Assembly (NCBI GenBank): GCA_002898275.1
Contig: BEIQ01000001.1
Coordinates: forward strand, 62,001-126,000
Direction of reading: 5' to 3'
DNA length: 64,000 nt
DNA from: a bacterium HR40
Lineage (GTDB): Bacteria; Pseudomonadota; Alphaproteobacteria; Geminicoccales; Geminicoccaceae
The translations under genes and the position numbers were made by a program. The notes beneath the pieces are model-generated. The model was not told the origin of the DNA. It saw only the letters and a list, made by a program, of their open reading frames with translations, and ran no database searches. Below, in pieces: positions 15,862 through 24,099 of this stretch; position 1 is the first letter of the stretch, and every line of letters begins with the position of its first letter.

Positions 15862-16260
15862 ATGGCCACGCTCGGCATCGATCCCGACAAGGTGTGCCAG
15901 ATCATCGTCGAGGCGCGGGCCCTCAATGCCCGCGAGGACGTGCTCGAGGACGAGGAGGAAGGCTCCAACCCGATCGACGACGAGATGTTGGAGGTGCTCG
16001 AGGAGCCCGAGGGGGAGGACGCCGTCTACGAGGAGCTCAAACAGTTCATCGAGGCCCTCAACGAGGAGGAGCAGATCGAACTGGTGGCCCTGGCCTGGCT
16101 CGGCCGCGGCAGCTTCTCCATCGAAGAATGGGAGGATGCCAAGGCGGAGGCTCAGCGCGCCCACAATGACCGCACCGCCGACTATCTCCTCGGCATGCCC
16201 ATGCTCGCCGACTATCTCGCCGAAGGGCTCGCCGCCTTCGGCATCAGCTGCGAGGATTGA
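15862..16260 (+). CDS. DUF3775 domain protein
   Basis: A 132-residue acidic cytosolic protein. The whole length resembles the small alphaproteobacterial DUF3775 family: LGIDPDKVCQIIVEAR, then the NPIDDEMLEVLE stretch, FIEALNEEEQIELVALAWLGRGSF (quoted in part: LNEEEQIELVALAWLGRG) and a C-terminal DYLLGMPMLADYLAEGL. No enzymatic motif is visible and the function is unknown. ATG at 15862 has GGGGAG and GGAAG upstream. Its 3' end overlaps glcF convergently by 49 bp. Confidence 0.88.
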   Translation: MATLGIDPDKVCQIIVEARALNAREDVLEDEEEGSNPIDDEMLEVLEEPEGEDAVYEELKQFIEALNEEEQIELVALAWLGRGSFSIEEWEDAKAEAQRAHNDRTADYLLGMPMLADYLAEGLAAFGISCED

Positions 16261-17609
16261 ACCCCGGCCGGGACCGCGCCGCGCTCGTCTCCCAGGGCGA
16301 GGCTCCGCTCCGACCAGTTCGCTGCGGCGAGGGCCGGCGGCAGGGGGCCGCCGGTCGCCCAGTCCAAAAGCTCCACCGTGTGGCAGACCGGGAGCCGGGT
16401 CAGTCGGCCGATCTGCACGAGGCAGCCGATGTTGCCGGAAGCCACCACATCGGCGGCCACCGCTTCGATGTTCGCGACTTTGCGTTCGGCGAGGCGACGG
16501 GCGATCTGCGGCTGCAGGATGTTGTAGGTGCCGGCGGAACCGCAACAGAGATGGGCTTCAGCCGGCTCGCGCACCATAAAGCCAGCCGCCGCTAGCAGCT
16601 GTTTGGGCAGGGTGGTGATGCGCTGGCCGTGCTGCAAGGAGCAGGCGGCATGATAGGCCACGGTCAGGCCGCTTTCCCGCACCGGCTGCGGCAGACCGAG
16701 GTCGCGCACGATCTCGCTCACGTCGCGGGCGAGCCGGGCGATGGTCGCGGCCTTCTCGCGCAACTTGGGGTCGTCCCGGAACATGAAGCCATAATCGCGG
16801 ACCGTGGTGCCGCATCCCGAGGCGTTGACGATCACGGCATCGAGCGGCTCGCGCTGGTGCTCGCGCCAAAAGGCTTCGATCGCGGCGGCAGCGGCGCGCT
16901 TCGCCGCCCCCTCCTTGCCCATGTGGTGGGTGAGGGCACCGCAGCAACCCGCATCTGCGGGTACCACGACCTCGGCGCCGAGACGCTGGAGCAGCCGGAT
17001 GGTGGCGTCGTTGATGCTCGGGGCGATCACGCGTTGCACGCATCCCGCGAGCAGCGCCACCCGCGCCCGCCTCGCGCCCTCGGGGCGATGGACAGCCAGT
17101 CGGCGACTCGCGGAAGGAGCCGGTCGCGTCTCGGGGGCGAGCTCCAGCATGGCGGCGAGCCGCCCGGGAAAAAGGTCGGCAACCGGTCGAGCCAGGCGGG
17201 CCGCCGAAAGCGCGAGCCGGAAGAGCCACGGCCGCGGCAGCACGGTAGCGAGGAGGGTGCGCAGCAAACGCTCCGGCAACGGCCGGCGGTGATGGAGTTC
17301 GATCCACGCCCGCGCATGATCCACGAGGTGCATATAGTGCACGCCCGAGGGACAGGTGGTCATGCAGGAAAGGCAGGACAGGCAGCGGTCGATGTGCTTC
17401 ACGGTGGCTGGCGACGGCGGACCACCGCTCTCCAGCATCTCCTTGATCAAATAGATGCGGCCGCGCGGGCTATCGAGCTCGTCGCCGAGCAGGACGTAGG
17501 TGGGGCAAGTGGCGGTGCAGAAGCCGCAGTGCACGCAGCTGCGCAAGATGCGGTCGCTCTCCCGCACATCGGGATCGCGCAGCTGCTCGGGGCGGAATCG
17601 GGTCTGCAT
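16212..17609 (-). CDS. glcF: Glycolate oxidase iron-sulfur subunit GlcF
   Basis: A 465-residue subunit with two [4Fe-4S] clusters bound by CVHCGFCTATCP (near 25) and CLSCLSCMTTCP (near 76), and two CCG-type motifs (DAGCCGALTHHMG and HLCCGSAGTYN) typical of heterodisulfide-reductase-like electron carriers. It passes electrons from the flavin subunits to quinone during glycolate oxidation. ATG at 17609 follows GAGGAT. It is last of glcD-glcE-glcF with 3- and 7-bp gaps. The C-terminal 30 residues (after LALGDERG) are low complexity. Confidence 0.96.
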   Translation of the reverse strand: MQTRFRPEQLRDPDVRESDRILRSCVHCGFCTATCPTYVLLGDELDSPRGRIYLIKEMLESGGPPSPATVKHIDRCLSCLSCMTTCPSGVHYMHLVDHARAWIELHHRRPLPERLLRTLLATVLPRPWLFRLALSAARLARPVADLFPGRLAAMLELAPETRPAPSASRRLAVHRPEGARRARVALLAGCVQRVIAPSINDATIRLLQRLGAEVVVPADAGCCGALTHHMGKEGAAKRAAAAAIEAFWREHQREPLDAVIVNASGCGTTVRDYGFMFRDDPKLREKAATIARLARDVSEIVRDLGLPQPVRESGLTVAYHAACSLQHGQRITTLPKQLLAAAGFMVREPAEAHLCCGSAGTYNILQPQIARRLAERKVANIEAVAADVVASGNIGCLVQIGRLTRLPVCHTVELLDWATGGPLPPALAAANWSERSLALGDERGAVPAGVQSSQLMPKAASPSAR

Positions 17610-17616
17610 CCTATCC

Positions 17617-18831
17617 TCACAGGCCGGCGACCATGCGCCCGCGATTGAGAATGCGCAGCGGATCGAAGCTCAGCTTGATCCGCTCGCCCAGTCTCTGCAG
17701 TGCCGGCGGCTGCGGCTCGAACACCTCGATGCGTTCGCGGATCTCGCGCGGCGCCCGCACGAGGGTGGCATGGCCATCGCGACCGGCGAGCGCTCGCCTG
17801 AGCTCGGCCGCGCGAAAGGCATAGGCCGCAGGTGGCGCGAGCCAGACGAGACCGCCAGCCCAGTCGAGCAACCATTCCGCCCCGAGATCGCGATACCAAG
17901 GGATGAGCTCGGCACCCGCGGTGGGCGGGAGCGACAACCGCCAGAGGGCGCGCCCGCGCGAGAGCAGCGCCACGTCCCGGATTTCTCGCCACAGCCGCTG
18001 CGACTGTTCGGGATCGAGGCGGTGGGCTTCGATATCCGGCTGCACCAGCGCTCCTTGGAGTCGCGACAGACGGTAGTCGGTCGACGCCGGCGGTCCCTCG
18101 ACGCGGATCGCCGCGACCGGTCGCCCGGCCCGGCGCACCGCCGGCACCTGCGACCGTCCGGCGGCGAGGGCGGGAAGGAGCGCTGCCCCCGAGGGCTCGA
18201 AGGGGGTGCCGGTCGCCCGACGCAGCAGTCCGGCGAGGGTCCGCTCGTCGCTTCCGCAGAGCAGCAGTGTACCCTCCGCCGCTGCCGCCGGCAGCACTTT
18301 GAAGGTGATCTCGGTGAGGACCGCGAGGGTGCCGAACGAACCGCAGAGCAGCTTGGGCAGATCGTAGCCGGTGACGTTCTTCATGACCCGGCCGCCTGCC
18401 TTCATCTCCTCGGCGAACCCGGTCACGCAGCGCACACCGAGGATATGGTCGCGTGCAGCCCCCGCCTGCAGGCGGCGCGGTCCCGAGAGGTTGCAGGCGA
18501 AAACGCCGCCGATCGTCTGTCGGCCGGCTTCGCCGCCCAAGAGCGGACCATAGTCTGGTGGTTCGAAGGCGAGCTGCTGCCGGTGTTCCGCCAGCACGGC
18601 CTCGATCTCGGTAAGGGGCGTGCCGGCCAATGCCGACATCACCAGCTCTTCCGGCTCGTAGAGGGTGATGCCGCGCAGCTCGGCCGTCGACACCGCCGCC
18701 TCCGCCTCGACCGGACGGCCGTAGTCCCGCTTGCTGCCCCCACCGAGAATCTCGAGCGGGCGGCGGGCAGCGACCGCCTCCGCCACGATCTCGCGCAACT
18801 CCGCGGCCGATGCGGGAAAAAGGGTGTGCAC
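17617..18831 (-). CDS. glcE: Glycolate oxidase FAD-binding subunit GlcE
   Basis: A 404-residue FAD_binding_4 protein with RRPLEILGGGSKRDYGRP, the FAD-loop GRQTIGGVFACNLSGPRR and VMKNVTGYDLPKLLCGSFG, all typical of GlcE. GTG at 18831 lies 3 bp after the glcD stop. It forms the glycolate oxidase complex with GlcD and GlcF at the membrane and makes glyoxylate. The order D-E-F matches E. coli and most alphaproteobacteria. Confidence 0.95.
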   Translation of the reverse strand: MHTLFPASAAELREIVAEAVAARRPLEILGGGSKRDYGRPVEAEAAVSTAELRGITLYEPEELVMSALAGTPLTEIEAVLAEHRQQLAFEPPDYGPLLGGEAGRQTIGGVFACNLSGPRRLQAGAARDHILGVRCVTGFAEEMKAGGRVMKNVTGYDLPKLLCGSFGTLAVLTEITFKVLPAAAAEGTLLLCGSDERTLAGLLRRATGTPFEPSGAALLPALAAGRSQVPAVRRAGRPVAAIRVEGPPASTDYRLSRLQGALVQPDIEAHRLDPEQSQRLWREIRDVALLSRGRALWRLSLPPTAGAELIPWYRDLGAEWLLDWAGGLVWLAPPAAYAFRAAELRRALAGRDGHATLVRAPREIRERIEVFEPQPPALQRLGERIKLSFDPLRILNRGRMVAGL

Positions 18832-18834
18832 GGG

Positions 18835-20322
18835 TCAAAAGCGCGGCAGGTGGGCAAAGCGCAGCTCGCCCCGATGCACGTGCACGCGCCCGAGCTCGGC
18901 ACAGCGGTGCAATGTCGGGAACACCTTGCCCGGATTGAGGATCTGTTGGGGGTCGAAGGCGCACTTCAGGCGCTGCTGCTGAGCGAGCTCGGATTCCGTG
19001 AACATCACGGGCATGAGATCTCGCTTTTCGATCCCGACCCCATGCTCACCGGTGAGCACTCCTCCCACTTCCACGCACAGCCGGAGGATATCGGCGCCGA
19101 ACGCCTCCGCCTTTTCGAGTTCCCCCGGCACGTTGGCATCGTAGAGAATGAGCGGATGGAGATTGCCGTCGCCGGCATGGAAGACGTTGGCCACCCGCAG
19201 CCCGTAGGTTTGGCTCATTTCGCGCATGCGCGCGAGCACCTCGGCGAGGCGCCGGCGCGGGATGGTGCCGTCCATGCAGTAATAGTCGGGCGAGATGCGG
19301 CCGACCGCCGGAAAGGCGTTCTTGCGCCCGGCCCAGAAACGCAGCCGCTCCTCTTCGCTTTCGCTCGCCCGCACCAGGAAGGCACCGTGCTGGCGGGCGA
19401 TGGCCGCAACCACGCCGATCGAATCCTCGACCTCGGCGGCGGGACCATCGAGCTCGCAGATGAGCAGGGCCTCCGCCTCGCGCGGATAGCCTGCGGCGCA
19501 GAAATCCTCGGCGGCGAGGATCGCCGGCCGGTCCATCATCTCGAGGCCGGCCGGGATGATGCCGTTGGCGATGATGGAGGCGACACAGTCTCCGGCCGCT
19601 TCCACCGAGGCAAACGCCATGAGCACCGCCCGCGCCGTCTCGGGCTTCGGCAAGATGCGCACGACGACCTCGGTGACCACACCGAGCAGCCCTTCCGAAC
19701 CCGTGACCACACCCAAGAGATCGTAGCCCCCGGCATCGAGATGCTTGCCGCCGAGGCGGACGATCTCGCCATCCGGCAACACGAGTTCGACCCCGAGCAC
19801 ATTGTTCGTGGTCAGACCGTATTTGAGACAGTGCACCCCGCCCGAGTTCTCGGCGACGTTGCCGCCGATGGTGCAGGCGATCTGCGAGGAGGGGTCGGGG
19901 GCATAGTAGAAGCCGAGGTGCTCGACCGCCCGGGTGATCGCCAGGTTGGTCACCCCGGGCTGGCAGGTGACGGTCCGGTTGTCGACGTCGATCTCGAGGA
20001 TGCGGTTGAACTTGCTCATCCCGAGTACGATGCCGTCGGCGACCGGGAGAGCTCCGCCGGAGAGGGAGGTGCCGGCGCCTCGGGGCACCACCTTGACACC
20101 CTCGGCGTTGCAGAATCGCAGCACGGCCGCCACCTGCTCTCGGGTCTCTGGCAGGACCACCGCGAGCGGCCGATTGCGATAGGCGGTGAGCCCGTCGCAC
20201 TCGTAGGCGGCGAGCTCGGAAGGATCGTCGATCACTCCCTCGCCCGGGACGATCCGCCGCAGTTCGGCGACAATGCGCGTTCGCGCCGCGAGGATTCGCT
20301 CGTCCGGTTCGGGCAACCGCAT
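18835..20322 (-). CDS. glcD: Glycolate oxidase catalytic subunit GlcD
   Basis: A 495-residue flavoprotein with VVPRGAGTSLSGGALPVADG, IACTIGGNVAENSGGVHCLK and the C-terminal HAGDGNLHPLI, GGVLTGEHGVGIEKRDLM motifs of the GlcD/D-lactate dehydrogenase family. The second of two nearby ATGs is chosen: GGGAGG lies seven bases before 20322 but abuts the one at 20328. Oxidation of glycolate to glyoxylate feeds gcl upstream in the same orientation. Confidence 0.96.
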   Translation of the reverse strand: MRLPEPDERILAARTRIVAELRRIVPGEGVIDDPSELAAYECDGLTAYRNRPLAVVLPETREQVAAVLRFCNAEGVKVVPRGAGTSLSGGALPVADGIVLGMSKFNRILEIDVDNRTVTCQPGVTNLAITRAVEHLGFYYAPDPSSQIACTIGGNVAENSGGVHCLKYGLTTNNVLGVELVLPDGEIVRLGGKHLDAGGYDLLGVVTGSEGLLGVVTEVVVRILPKPETARAVLMAFASVEAAGDCVASIIANGIIPAGLEMMDRPAILAAEDFCAAGYPREAEALLICELDGPAAEVEDSIGVVAAIARQHGAFLVRASESEEERLRFWAGRKNAFPAVGRISPDYYCMDGTIPRRRLAEVLARMREMSQTYGLRVANVFHAGDGNLHPLILYDANVPGELEKAEAFGADILRLCVEVGGVLTGEHGVGIEKRDLMPVMFTESELAQQQRLKCAFDPQQILNPGKVFPTLHRCAELGRVHVHRGELRFAHLPRF

Positions 20323-20382
20323 GCCCATACCTCCCGCTCACGCTCCCAATCTAGCGCGGCGGCCGTGCCGGACGAGGCAGGC

Positions 20383-21270
20383 TCAACGCTCGGGGACCAT
20401 CGTCTGACCCGCCAGGAACTCGAGCGCTCGCACCAGCGCCGAATGGTCCCAGCCAGCACCGCCGTGGGCGCGGCAGGCATTGAACAGCTGTTGCGTGGAG
20501 GCGGTGTTGGGTAGCGACAGGCCGAGCTGACGCGCCCCCTCGAGGGCGAGGTTGAGATCCTTTTGGTGCAGCTCGATGCGGAATCCTGGCTCGAAGCTGC
20601 GCCGGATCATGCGCTCGCCGTGTACCTCGAGGATCCGCGAGCCGGCAAAGCCGCCCATGAGCGCCTGCCGGACCTTCGCCGGATCGGCGCCGGCACGGGC
20701 GGCGAACAGCAAGCCCTCGGCCACCGCCTCGATGGTGAGCGCGACGATGATCTGGTTGGCCACTTTGGCGGTCTGGCCATCGCCGTTGGGGCCGACGAGG
20801 GTGATGTTCTTGCCCATGAGTTCGAAGAGGGGCTTGGCCCGTGCGAAGGCTTCCTCGCTGCCGCCTACCATGATGGTCAAGGTGGCGTTCTTCGCTCCCA
20901 CCTCGCCACCCGACACCGGCGCATCGAGGTAATCGCAACCGAGGGCGTTGATGCGCCGGGCGAACTCCTTGGTGGCGATCGGGCTGATGGAGCTCATATC
21001 GATGACGAGCTTTCCCGGACTGAGCCCGGCCGCGACCCCGTCGGGCCCGAAGAGCACCTTTTCGACATCGGGTGTGTCCGGCACCATGGTGATCACCGCC
21101 TCGGCCCGTTCGGCGACCTCCTGCGGCGTGCGGTGCGGGATGCCGCCGAGATCCACCAGTTCCTGCGGCACGCCGCTGCGACTCATGAGGTGCACCTCGT
21201 GGCCACCGCGAATGAGATGGCTCGCCATGGGCCGTCCCATGATCCCGAGTCCGATGAAACCGACCTTCAT
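20383..21270 (-). CDS. glxR: Tartronate semialdehyde reductase (2-hydroxy-3-oxopropionate reductase)
   Basis: A 295-residue beta-hydroxyacid dehydrogenase: N-terminal Rossmann motif GFIGLGIMGRPMASHL, substrate motif DAPVSGGEVGAKNATLTIMVGG (quoted in part: DAPVSGGEVGA), catalytic lysine in GQTAKVANQI, and the C-terminal LHQKDLNLAL typical of GarR/GlxR. It reduces tartronate semialdehyde, the Gcl product, to glycerate. GGGGGAGG precedes the ATG at 21270. It sits 99 bp after gcl and before glcD, completing a glycolate-to-glycerate route. Confidence 0.94.
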   Translation of the reverse strand: MKVGFIGLGIMGRPMASHLIRGGHEVHLMSRSGVPQELVDLGGIPHRTPQEVAERAEAVITMVPDTPDVEKVLFGPDGVAAGLSPGKLVIDMSSISPIATKEFARRINALGCDYLDAPVSGGEVGAKNATLTIMVGGSEEAFARAKPLFELMGKNITLVGPNGDGQTAKVANQIIVALTIEAVAEGLLFAARAGADPAKVRQALMGGFAGSRILEVHGERMIRRSFEPGFRIELHQKDLNLALEGARQLGLSLPNTASTQQLFNACRAHGGAGWDHSALVRALEFLAGQTMVPER

Positions 21271-21369
21271 TCCATACCTCCCCCAAAAGCTCGCATCGCG
21301 GCGCGTGTTGTGCGCCGGCCGCGCCCTTCCGGCAAGCCCAGCGCGAAGCCGCTGGGTTGCCGTCGATCC

Positions 21370-23118
21370 TCAGGCCGCCTCCGCGACAGTCACCCCCTCG
21401 TCGAACTCGACGATACGGTCGATCTCTGGCCCCATGGCCATGTCGGTGACCCGCTCGGTGATCACCTCGACGAGCACCGGCAGTTGTCGCCGTGCCGCCT
21501 CCTCGCGGGCCCAGCGCAGGGCCGGCTCGATCTCCTCCGGACGGGTCACCCGCCGGGCCACGCCACCGAACCCCTCGAATATCCGGACGTGGTCGACTCC
21601 GTAGGCGCCGAGTTCCGGTGCGTGCACATTCTCGAAGGACAGTTGCACCTCGAAGTCCATTCCGTAGGGCTTCTCGCCCTGCCGGATGAGCCCGAGATAA
21701 GCGTTATTGAGCAGGACCGTCACGAAGGGGATGCGGTATTGGGCGGCTACGGCCACTTCTTCGGCGAGGAACTGGAAGGAGTAATCGCCAGCGATCGCTA
21801 CCACCTCCCGCGTCGGATCGGACAGTTTGGCGCCGATGGCGGCTGGCACCTCCCAGCCGAGCGGGCCGGCCTGGCCACAGACGAGATACTGCCGCGGCCA
21901 ATGCATGCGCTGGAACTGGCCGGACGCGATCTGGTAGAGGCCGATGGCGGTGACGAAGCGGGCGTCGCGGCCGAACACCCGATCGATTTCGCGGAACACC
22001 CGCTGCGGCTTGATCGGTACGTCGGGGAAGTCGGTTCGCCGCGACAGGGTGCGCTTGCGCTGCTCGACGGTGCGAAGCCAGGCCCCGCGATCGGGTAGCC
22101 GACCCGCTTTTGCCTCTTCTTCGGCAAGAGCTACGAGCGCCGAAAGCGCCTCGCGCGCATCGGCGACGATCCCGAGATCGGGAGCGAAGACGCGGCCGAT
22201 CTGCGTCGGCTCGATGTCGATGTGCACGAAGCGCCGGCCGCGCGTATAGACGGGAATACTGCCGGTGTGGCGGTTGGCGAAACGGTTGCCGATGCCGAGC
22301 ACGAAGTCGGCATCGAGGAAGTTGGCATTGCCATAGCGGTGTTGGGTTTGCAGCCCGACCATGCCGGCCATGAGCGGATGGTCGTCGTCGATAGCCCCCC
22401 AACCCATCAAGGTCGGCACCACCGGTGTGGCGGTGAGTTCGGCGAAGCGCACGAGCAGATCGGCGGCATCGGCGAGGATCACGCCGCCGCCGGCAACGAT
22501 GAGCGGGCGCTCGGCCGCGCGCAGCATCGCGAAGGCCTGCTCTATGGCGCGGGGGTGCGGCATCGGCCGATGGACGGCGAGGGGTGCGTCGCACTCCGGA
22601 TCGTAGCTGATGGTCGCCTGCTGCACATCGATCGGCAGGTCGATGTGCACGGGTCCCGGTCGGCCGGAGCGCATCACCCGAAAGGCCTCGCGGAAGACCC
22701 CCGGGATCTGGCCCGGTTCGAGCACGCACACCGACCATTTGGTGACCGGGCGAGTGATGGCGGCGACGTCCACCGCTTGGAAATACTCGCGGTGGAGTTC
22801 GGCGCGCGGGGCTTGGCCGGTGATGCAGAGGATGGGGATGCTGTCCGCCATCGCCGAATAGAGGCCCGTGACCATGTTGGTGCCGGCTGGCCCCGAGGTC
22901 CCGACGCATACGCCGATCGCCCCCGAGCGGGCCCGGCTGTAGCCCTCGGCGGCATGGGTACCACCCTCCTCGTGGCGGACCAGGATGTGACGGATGCGGC
23001 TTTGGCGCAGCGCGGCGTAGAAGGGCAGGATGTTGGCGCCGGGAACGCCGAAGACGTGGGTGACCCCCTCGCTCTCGAGGATGTGCACGGCAGCCTGCAT
23101 GGTGCTCATTCGCGGCAT
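21370..23118 (-). CDS. gcl: Glyoxylate carboligase (tartronate-semialdehyde synthase)
   Basis: A 582-residue ThDP and FAD enzyme joining two glyoxylates to tartronate semialdehyde and CO2. Colinearity with E. coli Gcl is strong throughout: [60 protein letters not shown], and [11 protein letters not shown] with [10 protein letters not shown] for ThDP-Mg. ATG 23118 follows GGAGGT. Oddity: E. coli has Val51 (RHVEG) where this protein has Glu50 (RHEEG), the canonical activating glutamate of other ThDP enzymes. Activity as true Gcl is therefore likely but not certain. Confidence 0.92.
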
Positions 23119-23271: not shown

Positions 23272-24099
23272 TCAGGATGCGGGAGGGCGGCCGCCATAGG
23301 CAGCGGTCAGGCTCGCTGCCGCCTCGCGCACGAGATTGCCGAGGGCGGGGATTCGCGCGTCCGGGATCCTCACCGTCGGCCCCGAGATGGACAGGCCGGC
23401 AAACGGGGTGCCGTGTTCGTCGAAGACGGCTGCCGCCACACAGCGCAGACCCAGCGCGTACTCCTCGTCGTCGATGGCATAGCCGCGCTCGCGGATGCGG
23501 GCGAGTTCGGCGCGCAGGGCGCGCGGGCTCGTGAGGGTGCGGGTGGTCATCGCCGGTAGACCGTGACGCTGCAAGACGGCCGTCAGGGCCTCGTCGGGCA
23601 GCCAGGCCAGCACGGCCTTGCCGAGAGCGGAACAGTGCATCTTCACTCGGCCGCCGCGGCGGGCGATCGCCCGCATCATCTCCCGGCTCTCGATTTGCGC
23701 GAGATAGACCGCCTCGCCCTCGTCCTCGATCGCGAGATTGCACGTCTCCCCCGTTTCCAGCACGAGCCGGCGCATGATCGGGCGGGCGAGCAGAGCCAGA
23801 TCGCGGCTGCGGGCGAAGGCGCTGCCGACGGTGAATGCCTCGACTCCGACCTGCCAGACCCCTGTCGTCGTCTCGAAACGCACGAAGCGCTGCGCTTCGA
23901 GGGTGACCAGCAACCGGTGGGTAGTGGCGAGCGGCAGACCCGAGAGTTCCGCCAGCTCGCTCAGGGTGAGGCCGTCACCAGTGCCGGCCAGGGTCCGCAG
24001 CAGCGACAGGGCCCGCACCACCGAGCGTACCGTCCCCGTCTCTCGGCGCGTCGCCGCTTTGGCATCCCCTTGCCGACGCCGCAATGCCGTCTTCGCCAT
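23272..24099 (-). CDS. IclR-family transcriptional regulator
   Basis: A 275-residue regulator. The N-terminal winged helix is SVVRALSLLRTLAGTGDGLTLSELAELSGLPLATTHRLL (quoted in part: LSELAELSGLPLATTHRLL), and the C-terminal IclR effector domain includes RGGRVKMHCSALGKAVLAWL, GYAIDDEEYALGLRCVAAAVFD and GLSISGP. The Arg-rich first 20 residues are poorly conserved and the true start may be slightly later. It lies immediately upstream of gcl on the same strand. IclR proteins such as AllR control glyoxylate genes in other bacteria, so local control of gcl-glxR-glcDEF is a reasonable inference. Confidence 0.92.
   Translation of the reverse strand: MAKTALRRRQGDAKAATRRETGTVRSVVRALSLLRTLAGTGDGLTLSELAELSGLPLATTHRLLVTLEAQRFVRFETTTGVWQVGVEAFTVGSAFARSRDLALLARPIMRRLVLETGETCNLAIEDEGEAVYLAQIESREMMRAIARRGGRVKMHCSALGKAVLAWLPDEALTAVLQRHGLPAMTTRTLTSPRALRAELARIRERGYAIDDEEYALGLRCVAAAVFDEHGTPFAGLSISGPTVRIPDARIPALGNLVREAAASLTAAYGGRPPAS

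Follow-up and report, generated by a model that had tools for sequence, protein, structure and literature searches.

Organization of the gcl locus in bacterium HR40

The DNA analyzed here, referred to as the window, is a 64,000-nt stretch from bacterium HR40 (Geminicoccaceae; GCA_002898275.1, contig BEIQ01000001.1, positions 62,001-126,000), and all coordinates are given within it. The window contains a gene, gcl, whose uninterrupted 582-aa frame encodes a protein of the glyoxylate carboligase (Gcl) family. Behind an IclR-family gene, gcl, glxR, glcD, glcE, and glcF follow one another in the same direction (Table 1). The first-pass annotation, made from the letters alone, had described this neighborhood as that of a true gcl, and the gene assignments bear this out. 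Several relatives likewise have an IclR homologue ahead of gcl. The nearest match of the HR40 regulator, although under its cut-off, is BhcR, which regulates the beta-hydroxyaspartate route of glyoxylate use.

Table 1. Features of the gcl locus in window coordinates. Val-type denotes Gcl proteins with valine at position 51 of E. coli Gcl.
Feature	Position	Strand	Evidence
glcF, glycolate oxidase iron-sulfur subunit	16212..17609	-	NF008434 457.3 vs cut-off 333
glcE, glycolate oxidase subunit	17617..18831	-	NF008439 298.1 vs cut-off 284
glcD-like, glycolate oxidase subunit	18835..20328	-	NF008408 711.9 (best; below cut-off 897); TIGR00387 537 vs 567.9
glxR, tartronate semialdehyde reductase (2-hydroxy-3-oxopropionate reductase)	20383..21270	-	TIGR01505 410.6 vs cut-off 340.75
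gcl, probable Glu-type glyoxylate carboligase, 582 aa	21370..23118	-	NF008431, TIGR01504; 60% identity to 2PAN
Ser447 codon (Asp448 in Val-type), co-varies with E/V site	21778..21780	-	
Glu423 codon (Thr424 in Val-type), co-varies with E/V site	21850..21852	-	
Tyr395 codon (Ser396 in Val-type), co-varies with E/V site	21934..21936	-	
Asn81 codon (Asp82 in Val-type), co-varies with E/V site	22876..22878	-	
Glu50 codon GAG, E. coli Val51 column	22969..22971	-	alignment, codon reading
Leu31 codon (Asn31 in Val-type), co-varies with E/V site	23026..23028	-	
IclR-family regulator	23272..24099	-	nearest NF045644 BhcR 318.1 vs cut-off 350; NF008601 IclR 272 vs 380

In the most likely reading, these genes belong to a glycolate-to-glycerate pathway in which GlcDEF would convert glycolate to glyoxylate, HR40 Gcl would turn two glyoxylate molecules into tartronate semialdehyde and CO2, and GlxR would convert tartronate semialdehyde to glycerate. 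A MOFRL-type glycerate kinase, whose gene is found on another contig of the HR40 genome, would then phosphorylate the glycerate. The HR40 hyi homologue lies ~50 kb from gcl. In close relatives, hyi sits between gcl and glxR (L240:9044-9811), and it is absent from that position in HR40 (20383-23118). The acetolactate synthase (AHAS) of HR40 is a different gene (G000:C1:343130) with its small subunit behind it, and no AHAS small subunit was found near gcl. The left window edge (1-441; G000:C1:60882-62441, L004) cuts into the gene of another ThDP enzyme, one that belongs to the same superfamily and has the ordinary Glu.

A glutamate in the Val51 column

ThDP enzymes require a glutamate at N1', a rule to which Gcl is the standard exception. 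In a survey of the ThDP decarboxylase superfamily, Glu occupied standard position 51 in 94% of sequences, and Val was called characteristic of the entire Gcl family (Vogel 2012, PMC3534367). Codon 50 of HR40 gcl encodes glutamate within the motif LVRHEEGGT. In a phmmer alignment with E. coli Gcl (PDB 2PAN), Glu50 falls on Val51 with no gap near the site; a one-residue gap at 'lrq.srirhil' explains why the two numberings differ by one. The placement of Glu50 at the Val51 site, proposed earlier by comparison with the E. coli motif RHVEG, was thus correct, as was the motif itself; a check on whether Glu50 might fall off this column confirmed the column. The PDB matches include one further Gcl species, Deinococcus metallilatus (7CT6), which also has Val. 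No solved structure was found here for any Gcl with Glu at this site.

In a predicted model of HR40 Gcl (mean pLDDT 85), Glu50 is the first residue of a helix. The seven solved chains nearest to the predicted fold are all Gcl and come ahead of AHAS: TM scores by query length are 0.89-0.92 for the E. coli and Deinococcus enzymes, with AHAS next at 0.85. It appears that ThDP would be activated in the ordinary way in the HR40 enzyme, by hydrogen bonding of Glu50 to the aminopyrimidine N1', unlike in classical Gcl.

Distribution of Glu-type and Val-type Gcl

A set of 196 distinct Gcl-family proteins comprised 104 with Glu (Glu-type) and 92 with Val (Val-type), and no third residue occurred at the site. 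The Glu-types consist of a main group of 101 and three deep-branching Chloroflexota proteins. They were found in Alpha-, Beta-, and Gammaproteobacteria, Actinomycetota, Chloroflexota, and Acidobacteriota. Within Geminicoccaceae, the family of HR40 itself, five other genomes carry a Glu-type and nine a Val-type. Scanning for the Glu-type, with each species represented by a single genome, gave 428 relatives, and all 80 that were kept and read have Glu. Their hosts include Inquilinus, Alsobacter, Propylenella, Sulfuricaulis, Actinophytocola, many Streptosporangiales, and metagenome-assembled genomes labelled Chloroflexi, Acidobacteria, Betaproteobacteria, and others.

The share of Glu-types varied with the sample. 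Among 49 Gcl-bearing genomes of Actinomycetes, 18 had a Glu-type and 31 a Val-type. In the class sample, three of nine Gcl-bearing genomes, HR40 included, had a Glu-type. HR40 was the only Glu-type genome in the phylum sample of 48, in which 38 of the other 47 read Val and nine were judged by score alone. All five matches in the Chloroflexota sample had Glu, two of them above the cut-off. Judged by their sequences, Glu-types are a large overlooked Gcl group across several phyla. No report of a Glu-type Gcl was found in a search of non-subscription literature. NCBI models already label Glu-type proteins glyoxylate carboligase, and so what is new is not the family name but the residue state and its history.

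Evidence for glyoxylate carboligase function

The family membership proposed in the first-pass annotation holds, as the HR40 protein passes both NCBI Gcl models (NF008431, 964 bits vs a cut-off of 791; TIGR01504, 892 vs 711.2). NF008431 was also passed by 10 of 10 further Glu-types that were scanned. Gene context was counted in loci with at least 3 kb of flank on each side, leaving out the deep Chloroflexota. Among 74 distinct Glu-type loci, glxR lies within 4.5 kb on the same strand in 71 and is joined by hyi in 68; the figures for Val-type loci are 9/10 and 8/10. The order in proteobacteria is gcl-hyi-glxR, at times followed by glcDEF. Actinobacteria have the order hyi-glxR-gcl, at times with glxK and allB.

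Furthermore, 40 positions are at least 95% conserved, identical in Glu-types and Val-types, and absent from eight AHAS sequences. These Gcl-signature positions include I393, L421, W423, and I479 (E. coli numbering). The pocket residues I393, L421, L478, I479, Q115, and R284 (E. coli numbering) are invariant in the 101 Glu-types and 92 Val-types. I479 and Q115 have been listed as Gcl residues (PMC13327070). The segment 482-489 (position 483 and the stretch 484-489) is variable among Glu-types.

The operon partners, the 40 signature positions, and the separate AHAS together make glyoxylate carboligation by far the likeliest activity of the HR40 protein. Gene context and the conserved pocket residues point to its substrate preference. 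The data show the residue position, the family scores, the distribution, the operon context, the single origin of Val, and the co-varying set, and we infer catalysis by the protein, the part played in it by Glu50, and a common ancestor that was already a Gcl. Very probably, the HR40 protein is a working glyoxylate carboligase with canonical Glu-N1' activation of ThDP, belonging to a widespread Glu-type group that kept the ancestral residue.

Three deep Chloroflexota proteins (L215-L217) do not reach the Gcl cut-offs and were for that reason excluded from the context and signature counts; neither of the two with sufficient flanking sequence has glxR or hyi beside it. Deep-branching Chloroflexota L245, L246, and L247 have Glu at the site. 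Their best-scoring models are those for Gcl, yet below the cut-offs, and the two with sufficient flank lack glxR and hyi alongside.

Phylogeny and the direction of change

Trees were built with the E/V column removed and with AHAS as the outgroup. Gcl as a whole split from AHAS with support of 100/99 or better, and Val-types formed a single clade (100/100). The Val-type clade was placed inside the Glu-types, beside beta- and gammaproteobacterial Glu-types (100/99 and 99/99 for the node). Glu-types formed one side of a branch in none of 200 bootstrap trees. In AU tests, which covered two choices of outgroup as well as omission of the deep Chloroflexota, an arrangement with Glu-types as one side was not rejected (p = 0.262, 0.292, and 0.316), and the root may therefore lie on the Val-type stem. 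In other words, nesting of Val-types within Glu-types is favored by the trees but not proven. The tree proposed in the first-pass annotation as a check for a clade of E-type proteins thus gives one clade for the Val-types, and the Glu-types are either a grade or its sister group.

The outgroup AHAS proteins all have Glu at the site. An all-Glu outgroup together with a single Val-type clade makes Glu ancestral by parsimony, as one Glu-to-Val change suffices. Under either rooting, the trees indicate that Val arose once and that Glu is ancestral. The first-pass annotation had suggested that the HR40 protein may represent an alternative catalytic solution. The roles are to be exchanged: Glu is the ancestral canonical state and the Val enzyme the alternative, and the Glu-type is a broad subfamily rather than an isolated oddity.

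Residues that changed with the glutamate

Five positions (E. coli numbering) separate the 101 main-group Glu-types from the 92 Val-types without exception: L31N, E51V, N82D, Y396S, and E424T, written from Glu-type to Val-type. Position 448 is S or G in Glu-types and D in Val-types, and position 173 is Y and F, respectively, with rare exceptions. At positions 31, 51, 82, and 448, the usual Glu-type residue is that of AHAS. N31 is already present in the deep Chloroflexota proteins. The branch leading to the Val-types is long (~0.4 changes per site). The co-varying set and this long branch indicate that loss of the glutamate went together with a wider remodelling of the protein.

One model, to which we give an even chance, is that Glu-free ThDP catalysis was invented once inside a working Glu-dependent Gcl and needed a fixed package of changes (L31N, E51V, N82D, Y396S, E424T, and S448D). 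In this model, the surviving Glu-types would share the overall reaction with the Val-types but differ from them in the step that limits its rate. Val51 in E. coli Gcl reportedly slows the first step of the reaction and helps later ones.

Alternative explanations

Could the Glu-types be Gcl-like enzymes with a different or wider substrate pair, such as glyoxylate plus another acceptor aldehyde or pyruvate, that kept the glutamate for this purpose? The co-varying differences and the variable segment 482-489 would fit such a shift, as would the identity to E. coli Gcl, which is only 46-66% for Glu-types compared to at least 67% within the Val-types. However, glxR and hyi adjoin nearly all Glu-types, the 40 signature residues are shared, pocket included, and a Glu-type is mostly the sole Gcl of its genome (no second Gcl in 34 of 37). 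This explanation is therefore unlikely. An altered substrate choice had also been raised in the first-pass annotation and finds no support, since no pocket residue varies within the main Glu-type group and the neighbors in the operon are genes of tartronate-semialdehyde metabolism. An acetolactate synthase that resembles Gcl is less probable still. The HR40 protein shares the Glu, L31, N81, and S447 with AHAS, and the AHAS model TIGR00118 gives it 468.3 bits, but this is under the cut-off of 538.35 whereas both Gcl models are passed. Furthermore, no small subunit lies alongside, the AHAS of HR40 is encoded at another site beside its own small subunit, and the tree places the protein with Gcl, away from all AHAS. 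An AHAS identity was rejected on scores, context, and tree, which also answers the earlier concern that E-type proteins might be a clade of acetolactate synthases.

The remaining alternatives concern the residue itself. A secondary return to Glu from a Val-type ancestor would need an extra change. No supporting points were found for it, and no tree was obtained with Glu-types nested inside Val-types. The all-Glu outgroup, the single Val-type clade, and the other AHAS-like states of Glu-types speak against it, leaving it as improbable as an AHAS identity. A sequencing or alignment artefact has a practically negligible probability. It is true that GAG and GTG differ by a single base, but 148 rows from many genomes have Glu in an alignment that is gapless around the site. 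Glu is also present in relatives L010-L014 (same family, 74-77% identical) and L038 (another family of the same class), so neither sequencing error nor chance accounts for Glu50; sequencing error is refuted by these relatives.

Relation to known enzymes

With these alternatives weighed, the preferred reading of the HR40 protein remains a Gcl that uses the canonical glutamate. It resembles characterized Gcl (EC 4.1.1.47; E. coli 2PAN/8I01, D. metallilatus 7CT6) in whole-length homology (~60% identity), fold, pocket residues, and an operon with glxR and usually hyi. It differs from classical Gcl in having Glu at position 51 along with L31, N82, Y396, E424, and S448 (E. coli numbering). It is like the AHAS catalytic subunit (IlvB/IlvI) in the canonical Glu, the ThDP-enzyme architecture, and a few AHAS-like residues, but identity is only ~38%, no small subunit accompanies the HR40 protein, the 40 Gcl-signature positions differ from AHAS, and the operon context is that of glyoxylate.

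Glu-type Gcl follows the superfamily rule and contradicts the statement that Val is characteristic of the whole Gcl family (PMC3534367). The missing Glu is not a whole-family property, and Val at position 51 is unfit as a defining feature of Gcl because it marks one derived clade. Motifs that recognize Gcl by an absent Glu would miss the Glu-types, which are found in more than one-third of the Gcl-bearing Actinomycetes genomes sampled. As enzymes that would catalyze the same reaction, Glu-types offer a natural 'before' state. They reveal which other residues were replaced when Glu was lost and would be a natural comparison for the effects of Val51 on the reaction steps. Why the glutamate was given up becomes testable by swaps in both directions. 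Three actinobacteria (L154, L155, and L156 with L241, L242, and L243) have a Val-type alongside a Glu-type, and one of them has two Glu-types; these genomes offer natural material for a side-by-side comparison.
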